64,000 nucleotides of DNA from an uncultured Spartobacteria bacterium (GTDB lineage: Bacteria > Verrucomicrobiota > Verrucomicrobiia > Chthoniobacterales > Terrimicrobiaceae), in the NCBI GenBank assembly GCA_937919825.1, contig CALFPA010000052.1:1-64000 (forward strand), read 5' to 3'. The notes under the pieces are model-generated. The model had not been told where the DNA came from, searched no databases, and was given only the letters and a program-made list of their open reading frames with translations. This document shows, piece by piece, positions 23,095 to 44,467 of the stretch (positions are counted from its first letter, which is position 1; every line of letters starts with the position of its first letter). Both the position numbers and the translations under genes were made by a program.

Positions 23095-23166
23095 GCCGAT
23101 GTAGCACAGTGGTAGTGCAATCGATTCGTAATCGATAGGTCACGAGTTCGAGTCTCGTCATCGGCT
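23095..23166 (+). tRNA. tRNA-Thr (anticodon CGT)
   Basis: A full cloverleaf folds from 23095: acceptor stem GCCGATG/CATCGGC, D-stem GCAC/GTGC, anticodon stem ATCGA/TCGAT with loop TTCGTAA (anticodon CGT, reading ACG), and T-stem ACGAG/CTCGT with loop TTCGAGT. The discriminator is T and no CCA is encoded. The overall pattern matches bacterial tRNA-Thr(CGT). It sits 47 bases after lpxA and just upstream of the methyltransferase gene. Confidence 0.96.
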
Positions 23167-39211: not shown

Positions 39212-40184
39212 CAAGCCAGTCGATCGCGCGGCGGGCCCGATCTCCACGGCATTCGTGCTCGGAGCTGGCCTCGGAACACGACTGAGGCCTCTTACGGATT
39301 CGCGGCCGAAGCCGCTCGTGCCGGTCTTCAACAAGCCTCTCATCACTTTCGCATTCGATCATCTGATGGATGCCGGAGTGCAAAAATTCGTCGTCAATAC
39401 ACACCATCGCCCCGAGGCCTACGGAAGCTTGCTGGGCGCTTCGCAGGGGCGTGGCGACTACCGGGGGCGTGAAGTTTTTTTCCGCCACGAACCCGTTCTC
39501 CTCGAAACCGGAGGCGGCATCAAAAATGCGGCCGACCTTCTCGGCGATGAACCGTTCCTTGTATATAATGGCGATGTGCTCGCGGACTTTCCACTGGGCC
39601 CGCTGATCCGCGCGCACAGCGGATCCGGAAATATCGCCACGCTCGCGCTGCGCTCTTCGGGAGCTGAACGCCGCATCCAATTTGATGTGGACTCGGGGCT
39701 CGTCACGGACATGCGCGGCTTGATTGGTGGACGCCCCGAGCCGGCTTTTCTTTTCACCGGAGTGAGCATCGTTTCTCCAGAAATCCACAAGCACATCGGC
39801 GACGGCCAAATCGTTTCGATCATCCCCGTGCTGATTGATCTCATGAGGCGCGGCGCGCGGGTGGGGGGAGTCGTCGTGGATGAAGGCGTGTGGTTTGATA
39901 TTGGAAATATCGGGGCTTATCTCGAGGTCCACAAAATCCTCGCCGGAGATGCCCATCGATTCTCTTATCTGCCTGAAGATTGGTGGCAAGTTGTGGCGCC
40001 TGGCGCGGTGGTCGATCCCTCGGCGACCCTGACTGGAGGCACCGCTGTGGGGGAAGGAGCGATCGTTGGTGAAGGGGCGATTCTCGAAGATGTGGTGGTG
40101 TGGCCGGGAGAAATCGTCGAGCCATCCACGAGGCTCTGCCGCGTGGTTCTAGCGGTTGGTCGCATGTGCGAATCGGTCGGATAA
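39204..40184 (+). CDS. Sugar nucleotidyltransferase with hexapeptide-repeat tail
   Basis: 326 residues. FVLGAGLGTRLRPLTDSRPKPLVPVFNKPLI is the start of NTP transferases (catalytic loop GxGTRLxPLT and PKP); LLETGGGIKNAADLL and FLVYNGDVLADF (metal Asp) follow. The C-terminal part (about 265-326) has hexapeptide repeats of a left-handed beta-helix (VVDPSATLTGGTAVGEG). It resembles mannose-1-phosphate guanylyltransferases and MurNAc-phosphate uridylyltransferases; the sugar is not clear. It overlaps the GNAT gene by eight bases and ends at a terminator. Confidence 0.85.
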   Translation: MSDKPVDRAAGPISTAFVLGAGLGTRLRPLTDSRPKPLVPVFNKPLITFAFDHLMDAGVQKFVVNTHHRPEAYGSLLGASQGRGDYRGREVFFRHEPVLLETGGGIKNAADLLGDEPFLVYNGDVLADFPLGPLIRAHSGSGNIATLALRSSGAERRIQFDVDSGLVTDMRGLIGGRPEPAFLFTGVSIVSPEIHKHIGDGQIVSIIPVLIDLMRRGARVGGVVVDEGVWFDIGNIGAYLEVHKILAGDAHRFSYLPEDWWQVVAPGAVVDPSATLTGGTAVGEGAIVGEGAILEDVVVWPGEIVEPSTRLCRVVLAVGRMCESVG

Positions 40185-40227
40185 AAACTCGGAAAAAACC
40201 TCATGGAATCACTAGGCGAGTTTTTTT
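40184..40227 (+). terminator. Intrinsic terminator after the nucleotidyltransferase
   Basis: AAAACTCG (40184-40191) pairs with CGAGTTTT (40217-40224), with an inner CCT/AGG, followed by a T-run. It separates the nucleotidyltransferase from the ribosomal protein cluster. Confidence 0.55.
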
Positions 40228-40238
40228 CGTTTTTTATC

Positions 40239-40266
40239 TTGCCTCATTTTCAGCGGCCTGTAGTTT
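40239..40266 (+). promoter_or_regulatory. Candidate promoter of the ribosomal protein cluster
   Basis: TTGCCT (40239-40244), a 16-base spacer and TAGTTT (40261-40266). A start near 40272 would give a leader of about 170 bases containing the hairpin at 40302 and the small reading frame at 40361. The -10 matches only partly. Confidence 0.4.
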
Positions 40267-40301
40267 CCCACTTCCCGTTAGTCCTTGGGGGTAGCTTAAT
40301 G

Positions 40302-40323
40302 ACCACGCAAGCGTGGTTTTTTT
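40302..40323 (+). terminator. Leader hairpin with T-run, possible attenuator
   Basis: ACCACGC (40302-40308) pairs with GCGTGGT (40311-40317) and is followed by seven T residues, the form of an intrinsic terminator, about 120 bases upstream of rplD. An enclosing GGGGG (40287-40291) and CCCCC (40326-40330) could form an alternative or extended fold. Its position in the leader of a cluster starting with L4 suggests attenuation; the regulation is inference. Confidence 0.55.
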
Positions 40324-40360
40324 GTCCCCCGATGAAGGGCGAAAACAACGGTCAACAACA

Positions 40361-40444
40361 ATGAATTTCCAACCGCACATCGTCTTCGAAATCGCTTCCC
40401 AAGCGGGATCCGAGGCTTGTGCCGTTTCCGTTTCCAACTCATGA
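40361..40444 (+). CDS. Possible 27-residue leader peptide coupled to rplD
   Basis: ATG at 40361 opens 27 codons (MNFQPHIVFEIASQAGSEAC and a short Val/Ser tail) ending in a TGA that overlaps the rplD ATG (ATGA). Such overlap suggests translational coupling, but no ribosome site is clear and the peptide matches nothing I recognise. It could be chance. The peptide does not look like a remnant of L3. Confidence 0.3.
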   Translation: MNFQPHIVFEIASQAGSEACAVSVSNS

Positions 40445-42203: not shown

Positions 42204-42482
42204 ATGGCACGCTCACTGAAAAAAGGCCCATTTGTGGAGTGGAAGCTCCTCGACAAGATCGACCGGATCAACGACTCCGGAACAAAAAAACCCATCAAAA
42301 CCTGGTCCCGCCGCAGCACAATTACGCCGGACTTCGTTGGCCACACCTTCAATGTGCACAACGGCAAGACTTTCATTCCCGTCTTCGTGACCGAAAATAT
42401 GGTTGGTCACAAGTTGGGCGAATTTTCGCCAACACGAATTTTCAAGAAACACGGTTCTCACACCGCAAAAGTGACAAAATAA
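42204..42482 (+). CDS. rpsS: 30S ribosomal protein S19
   Basis: 92 residues with [14 protein letters not shown] at the start and [48 protein letters not shown] (a conserved core, residues about 30-78). Partner of S13 in the 30S head. It is followed three bases later by the non-ribosomal gene at 42486 instead of rplV. Confidence 0.97.
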
Positions 42483-42485
42483 ATA

Positions 42486-43268
42486 ATGAGGGTTGTCGCC
42501 ACGGCGGCATCTCTCGCGTTCTTGCTGTCGCTCTCTGGGGCATCGGCACGGAACGACCGATCTTTGACAGATTTTGAATCAGGCAGTCCGGATCCGGGAT
42601 ACACACTTCCCGACCCGGAAACCAATGATGTTGCCGCGCTAAAAGAGCAACTCCTCATGGCGCGATCGCAGATGAAAAACCTCACAGAGGGCATCGCGGC
42701 CGCAAATACCGAGGCAGAAATCTTTAAGCGTCAACTTTTAGAGGCCCAACTCCGATTAGAAGCGATCGGTTTATCCAATATAGACAACGATCCCTCCCTG
42801 CTGGAAGCCAGGTTGCTCCAAGCCATTCGAGAACTTCGTGTTCTCAAGGAAAAACATCAAGCAGCCATCGAGCAGTTGGTAAAACTCAGTGAATCCATTA
42901 CAATCCTTGTCAAAACCTCCGGTGACATCAAAACCGAGGCCCGAGTAGCTGTGGAAGCCGAATTGCGGGAAACAGCCCAAATCCTCGGAGTGACCGAAAA
43001 CCAAACTAGCGATGCAAACGATAGTCTTCAGCAGGCTCGGGTGGTGGACTTCAAAGAGGACCTTTCCCTCATTGTCGCGAATGTCGGCTCGACCAACGGC
43101 GTCAAAGTAGGAATGCCCTTTATCATCCTTCGGGATGGACAACTCATAGGAAATGCCAAAGTCATCGATGTGCGAGAACGCATCAGCGGTGCTGTGATTC
43201 AAAATCTAAGCTCGGATAACACGCGAGTGGAAAAAGGCGACACCCTTAAAGTGGACGCCAAAAAATAA
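42486..43268 (+). CDS. Secreted coiled-coil protein inside the ribosomal protein cluster
   Basis: 260 residues and not a ribosomal protein. A Sec signal peptide (1-21, cleavage after SGASA) leads to an acidic segment, a coiled coil (about 50-165, heptads rich in Leu, Glu and Gln) and a C-terminal beta domain (about 185-258, with LIVANVGSTNGVKVGMPFIIL and IGNAKVIDVRERISGAVIQNL) resembling small beta domains of envelope scaffold proteins. It lies 3 bases after rpsS and 12 before rplV, so it must be co-transcribed with them. TTA and ATA codons are commoner here than in its neighbours, perhaps a sign of later arrival. No function can be assigned. Confidence 0.8.
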   Translation: MRVVATAASLAFLLSLSGASARNDRSLTDFESGSPDPGYTLPDPETNDVAALKEQLLMARSQMKNLTEGIAAANTEAEIFKRQLLEAQLRLEAIGLSNIDNDPSLLEARLLQAIRELRVLKEKHQAAIEQLVKLSESITILVKTSGDIKTEARVAVEAELRETAQILGVTENQTSDANDSLQQARVVDFKEDLSLIVANVGSTNGVKVGMPFIILRDGQLIGNAKVIDVRERISGAVIQNLSSDNTRVEKGDTLKVDAKK

Positions 43269-43280
43269 ACAACAAAAGAC

Positions 43281-43760
43281 ATGCAGGTAAAATCGACACA
43301 CAGGTTCGCCAAGATCTCGGCCTTCAAGGCTCGCGAGGTCACACGCGCCATTCAAGGTCTTCCCGCCACGGATGCCCTTGATCTTTTGCGTTTCACTCCG
43401 AAAAAAGCCGCCGGCTTGATTCTGAAGACACTTCGTAGCGCGATCGCCAACGCCGAGAACAACAATAGCTTGAATGTTTCCGACCTCGTCGTGAAAGAAG
43501 CCGTTGTAGGCGAGGGGCCGACCTTGAACCGCTCCCAGCCCAAAGCTCGCGGAAGTGCCGGTCCGATCCGCAAACGCTCCAGCCATATTCGTGTCATCCT
43601 AACCGACGAGATCGAAATTGTCCGGCGCGAGGACAAACTTAAGAAAAAGAAACAAAAAACAACTAAAAAAGCCTCCGCCAAGTCGAAGGCTCCAGGCGCC
43701 GAGCCCGCCCCGGCGTCTGAAACCGAATCCGCCGCTCCCGCCGCGGAAACCAAGGAGTAA
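43281..43760 (+). CDS. rplV: 50S ribosomal protein L22, extended C-terminus
   Basis: 159 residues. The L22 core (1-118) includes [45 protein letters not shown] and the C-terminal loop region [17 protein letters not shown], with the tunnel-reaching beta-hairpin. The last 38 residues are a low-complexity tail ([19 protein letters not shown] then Ala/Pro/Glu), absent from most L22 proteins. The ATG at 43281 follows the secreted protein gene by 12 bases. Confidence 0.95.
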
Positions 43761-43762
43761 TC

Positions 43763-44467
43763 ATGGGACAAAAAGTAAACCCGATCGGATTTCGTCTACC
43801 CATCACCCGTGACTGGGGTTCCCGCTGGTATGCATCGCGCAAAGACTTTGCCGACTACCTGATCGCCGACGACAAAATTCGCACCACTCTCAAGAAAAAG
43901 CTCAAGCAAGCCGCCGTCGCCCGCATCGTGATCGAGCGCGCTTGGAATAGTGTCCGAGTGACAATCCACACCGCCCGTCCGGGTGTCGTGATCGGTCGCC
44001 GCGGCCAGGAAATCGAGAACCTCACCAAGGAAGTCAGTGACCTCGCCGGCGGCAAGCAGGTGAAAATTGACATCGTCGAAATCAAGAATCCCGACCTCGA
44101 TGCCCAACTCGTGGCCGAGAATGTCGCCTCTCAACTTGAGCGCCGTATTTCCTTCCGTCGCGCCATGAAGCGCGCTGTGCAACTCACGATGGACCAAGGT
44201 GCTCTTGGTATCAAAATCCGTTGCGCCGGTCGTTTGGGTGGCGCGGAAATTGCCCGCACCGAGCGCTATCACGAAGGCAAAGTCCCTCTCCACACCCTCC
44301 GTATCCCGATCGACTACGGGTTTGCGGAAGCCGAGACCGTTGCCGGTAAAATCGGAGTCAAGTGCTGGATCTGCAAGAAAGTCGAAGAAGAAGTGCAGGA
44401 TAAACCGAAGGAAATCATCGTTCGTTCCAACCCGGCCCCCGATGTCGAGGCCCCGGCGACTGTCTGA
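43763..44467 (+). CDS. rpsC: 30S ribosomal protein S3
   Basis: 234 residues. The N-terminal [23 protein letters not shown] and KH domain ([16 protein letters not shown], with the GXXG loop GRRG) are clear, as is the C-terminal domain [29 protein letters not shown] short acidic C-terminal tail ends the protein. It starts two bases after the rplV stop. Confidence 0.97.

Follow-up and report, generated by a model that had tools for sequence, protein, structure and literature searches.

A predicted secreted coiled-coil and barrel protein encoded directly before rplV in the S10 operon of Verrucomicrobiota

Few gene strings are as well conserved among bacteria as the S10 operon. In the window (i.e., the whole stretch of 64,000 nucleotides analyzed here, from an uncultured Spartobacteria bacterium), the forward strand carries rplB (ribosomal protein L2; 41352 to 42200; identified from the list of open reading frames and from matches in the loci of relatives), rpsS (S19; 42204 to 42482; Ribosomal_S19, E = 1.7e-37), an inserted gene for a protein of 260 amino acids (42486 to 43268; ATG start, TAA stop), rplV (L22; 43281 to 43760), and rpsC (S3; 43763 to 44467), the next gene of the operon. 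The inserted open reading frame (ORF) begins 3 bases after rpsS and ends 12 bases before rplV, its constant neighbor, in agreement with the placement given in the preliminary description. The dN/dS ratios of six orthologue pairs (about 0.05 to 0.23) indicate purifying selection; therefore, the protein sequence is under selection and the gene is real. Given the tight spacing, the ORF product and the ribosomal proteins are probably translated from one mRNA. A promoter pattern scan of 4.4 kb returned four weak promoter-like sites (1.7 +/- 1.4 in shuffled sequences), one of them just 5' of rplV (43266 to 43293). The window and eight split-operon loci gave no Rfam match to an RNA leader or riboswitch; the window's only Rfam match at the gathering threshold is a tRNA gene at 23095 to 23166. 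The S10 operon of the window is headed by rplD, and rplC (L3) was not found upstream of it (window 40184 to 40417). The same holds for many close relatives (L032 to L041, L043, L045, L048, L058, L062, and L107), and rplC occurs together with rplD in 52 other named loci.

The N-terminus of the window protein (MRVVATAASLAFLLSLSGASA, followed by RN) resembles a signal peptide by inspection (residues 1 to 21, ending in SGASA; 42486 to 42548). A hydrophobic N-terminus is present in 74 of 79 orthologues, signal peptides being judged here by hydrophobicity and without a trained predictor. It is followed by a helical, coiled-coil region (residues 49 to 166; 42630 to 42983), with helices predicted at residues 49 to 94, 103 to 144, and 150 to 166 in the structure model, and by a C-terminal six-stranded beta-barrel (residues 182 to 258; 43029 to 43259; strands predicted within residues 184 to 256), which is the part conserved through the phylum. 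The model of the window protein is of moderate overall confidence (pLDDT, 76.5; pTM, 0.33) and does not fix the arrangement of coil and barrel; the model of a short form from another family shows the same barrel, with a pLDDT of >90 over most of it. The barrel is recognizable across classes, and the length of the coiled coil varies. The N-terminal sequence and the structure model support the proposed presence, within the S10 operon, of a gene whose secreted product has a coiled coil and a beta C-terminus. Searches of Pfam and NCBIfam with the window protein gave no match above cut-off, and a sequence search for PDB relatives gave weak coiled-coil and barrel matches and nothing stronger.

The closest structural likeness of the long form is to FlgT, a component of the Vibrio flagellar H ring (Z = 11.5 for 8z5n and 11.2 for 3w1e; 73 to 75 residues; rmsd, 1.8 to 2.0). 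The C-terminal domain of FlgT resembles that of the ORF product in its barrel fold and periplasmic setting. However, the ORF product lacks the other FlgT domains and has a coiled coil, and its gene lies in a ribosomal operon instead of beside flagellar genes. FlgT_C (PF16538) was matched weakly by 14 of 20 family members (best E = 1.1e-4, below the curated cut-off), and no match to it was listed for the window protein at E values up to 10. The C-terminal domain also resembles the N-terminal barrel of the F1-ATPase alpha subunit (Z, about 10) and MreC, which was among its best Foldseek matches (E = 8.8e-5). The alpha/beta N-terminal barrels have the same fold and form a ring in the F1-ATPase, but the ORF product has no ATPase domain, and this resemblance is one of fold only. 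A shared barrel fold does not establish function.

The same genomes encode further coil-barrel proteins that are not linked to rplV (e.g., G000:C80, at L171 1425 to 2219, and L174), each with an N-terminal helix, a long coiled coil, and the same barrel. Their C-terminal domain is that of the window family (hhalign E = 1.7e-11), but they are encoded outside the S10 operon and have no evident signal-peptide cleavage motif. They are likely paralogues. One such gene lies between dprA-like and prfB-like genes, and one genome carries a tandem pair (L174). The G000:C80 protein was considered as a candidate MreC and rejected, since it is one of these unlinked proteins. The PVC signature protein CT421.2 (about 53 to 80 amino acids; PMC3444138) was likewise rejected as the identity of the ORF product, being a different and much shorter protein.

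Orthologues were detected in 48 of 58 order-level relatives, and all 30 of the loci that we fetched carry the orthologue between rpsS and rplV, or beside whichever of the two is on the contig, usually starting a few bases 3' of rpsS. A motif-based scan of about 85,000 species returned 79 loci titled Verrucomicrobiota, Verrucomicrobiota subgroups, or "PVC group"; Chthoniobacter flavus Ellin428 is among them, and the gene lies between rpsS and rplV wherever a contig includes both. Loose labeling may affect the records titled Prosthecobacter or Akkermansia, which are environmental metagenome-assembled genomes. A class-level profile search matched 70 of 113 Verrucomicrobiia genomes, and the gene occupies the rpsS-rplV gap in 13 further matching members that we inspected. 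The homologues sought among related genomes are thus in the same gap in every Verrucomicrobiia relative fetched. Two 0.9-Mb genomes of the same order (L124 and L125; G031 and G040), probably Xiphinematobacter-like, have a short rpsS-rplV gap and have lost the gene; no clear remnant was seen on reading these gaps. The two gaps have a stretch of similar sequence in common.

The distance between rpsS and rplV was measured in 195 sampled Verrucomicrobiota genomes. In some families, the two genes are close (about 50 to 190 bases between domains), leaving no room for the gene, and several lineages have such intact junctions without it. Together with the two 0.9-Mb genomes, this absence indicates that the gene is not universally needed. 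Other families have gaps of 400 to 1,160 bases. The ORFs in these gaps, which belong to other families and classes of the phylum, are either short (111 to 130 amino acids), with a hydrophobic N-terminus and the barrel but without a coiled coil, or longer (164 to 321 amino acids), with a signal or anchor, a coil, and the barrel. A clear lipobox (VAAC) is present in one lineage (L139) and a possible one (GSGC) in another (L131). Profile comparisons connect the window family with the short forms (E = 7.6e-12) and with those of other classes (E = 1.1e-21). The core function cannot depend on the coil, which the short forms lack. The preliminary description had set a lineage-specific insertion against a gap regularly occupied across distant phyla. 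The gaps compared here are those of Verrucomicrobiota, and within this phylum the gap is filled across classes.

Many genomes of other classes have rpsS far from rplV, the break in the S10 operon falling exactly between rpsS and the inserted gene (L151 to L170; G161, G266, G235, G212, and others), so that the inserted gene leads the rplV-rpsC string. The complete or single-contig cases (G161, G266, G235, and G212) have unrelated genes after rpsS and a homologue directly before rplV (266 to 312 amino acids in the longest reading); the split-operon forms are homologous to the window family (profile E = 4.7e-13). A model of the barrel alone matched 148 of the 195 genomes. The best match and rplV could both be placed in 112 genomes; in 92 of these, the match lies directly upstream of rplV (roughly 67 of 87 when the approximately 25 placed genomes that contributed sequences to the model are excluded). 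In 30 of these 92 genomes, rpsS is listed elsewhere, some of which in draft genomes could be contig breaks. The linkage of the gene to rplV is thus tighter than that of rpsS. We propose an rplV-linked coil-barrel family, whose members are encoded directly upstream of rplV and have a predicted export signal and the conserved barrel; the window protein shows all of these features.

The codon usage of the ORF differs from that of its neighbors, as the preliminary description had noticed. TTA accounts for 3 of 33 Leu codons and ATA for 2 of 17 Ile codons, and neither occurs in rplB, rpsS, rplV, rpsC, rplD, rplE, rplF, or rplP; the GC3 is 0.54, versus 0.62 to 0.71 in those ribosomal genes. These differences would fit a recent horizontal insertion that has been kept by chance. 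However, they recur among relatives, in which the GC3 of the ORF is below that of rplB plus rpsC in 66 of 71 cases and the ORFs exceed the ribosomal genes in TTA (6.1% versus 3.0% of Leu) and ATA (10.9% versus 1.5% of Ile). The codon difference is a standing property and not a mark of recent arrival, and weaker translational selection is a sufficient explanation of it. We also compared trees of 65 orthologues with those of concatenated L2, S19, L22, and S3. The ORF and ribosomal trees have 36 of 62 splits in common (label shuffles: mean, 0.1; maximum, 2), and only 3 of 38 well-supported ORF splits conflict with the ribosomal tree. Patristic distances are correlated (Spearman, 0.77), with the ORF evolving about three times faster. 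The congruent splits and correlated distances show vertical descent. The later arrival suggested earlier is contradicted by the orthologues in the rpsS-rplV gap across order and class, by the homologues in other classes, and by an ORF tree that follows the ribosomal one; with synteny and trees both against it, recent horizontal insertion is refuted, and its probability is negligible. The gene has instead stood directly before rplV since early in the history of Verrucomicrobiota.

The function of the ORF product was weighed against known envelope systems. Its plan of an N-terminal export or anchor segment, a coiled coil, and a C-terminal beta domain is that of MreC, and weak MreC sequence matches (E = 0.0057) as well as the Foldseek result would be consistent with an MreC-like subunit of the MreB elongasome (i.e., a second MreC that times wall growth). 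This is nevertheless quite unlikely. A separate true MreC is encoded elsewhere in the genome (G000:C91; E = 5e-39), which is the genome's only match to PF04085, none being found for the window protein. mreB and mreC are both on that contig, and the ORF is not beside mreB but between rpsS and rplV. MreC has two beta domains, and a single six-stranded barrel is predicted for the ORF product. Presence is also uncoupled in both directions: PF04085 MreC is absent from each of the 17 genomes sampled from one genus (probably Akkermansia), of which the members with listed matches keep the inserted gene, and the two 0.9-Mb genomes have MreB and MreC without it. Identity with MreC is therefore rejected. 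In the two MreC-less genomes that we read (L192 and L193; G146 and G135), mreB is followed directly by the RNase E/G gene rng.

It is also unlikely that the protein belongs to a ring-shaped assembly of the envelope (e.g., a secretin or pilus complex), in the way that FlgT belongs to the flagellar H ring. The rank of FlgT among the structural matches and the weak FlgT_C matches favor such a role, but almost every sampled genome without the gene has secretins, the two of 0.9 Mb included, and one lineage only is without both; moreover, gene order ties the ORF to rplV and not to a secretion cluster. A dependence on either MreC or secretins is unsupported, since their presence does not track that of the gene. 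A role mainly in cis, in which the gene would set rplV expression as a spacer or as the carrier of a promoter and the protein would be of minor importance, could account for a linkage to rplV that survives operon splitting, for the wide variation in length, and for the weak promoter-like site before rplV. Against it are the purifying selection on the protein, the barrel that can be recognized across classes, the signal peptide kept nearly everywhere, and the Rfam search, which found no known RNA leader; we regard it as very unlikely.

We favor, with a probability of about 0.5, the explanation that the ORF is long established in the verrucomicrobial S10 operon, has been inherited vertically, and encodes a periplasmic scaffold or adaptor whose production is in proportion to that of ribosomes. 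Such a role is suggested by the combination of N-terminal export, a coil that varies in length, and a barrel that is constant. The product would be exported by Sec, with a lipid or an N-terminal helix as its anchor in some lineages; the coiled coil may form oligomers or a stalk, and the barrel may dock on an envelope complex or on other copies of the product. Because the ORF is probably read with S19 and L22, the amount of its product should follow the rate of ribosome synthesis and hence the growth rate. There may thus be a link between envelope growth and ribosome output, which the preliminary description had raised as speculation. More tentatively, and with the odds against it, this scaffold or adaptor may represent a phylum-wide, hard-wired coupling, in which transcription of ribosomal protein genes sets the dose of an envelope scaffold, the building of periplasm and envelope scales with ribosome content, and the arrangement is important enough for the gene to stay with rplV after the S10 split.

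We found no earlier description of the gene in the searchable open-licence literature, and an rplV-linked envelope gene seems not to have been described before. The phylum has a tractable model in Verrucomicrobium spinosum, with TraDIS and targeted mutagenesis (PMC12283558). The gene provides a marker of Verrucomicrobiota that is recognizable by gene order. The phylum-wide occurrence of a gene for a secreted protein in the S10 operon, and its persistence with rplV after the split, suggests selection for the coproduction of an envelope part and ribosomes and offers a concrete way into the question of how ribosome synthesis and envelope growth are matched.
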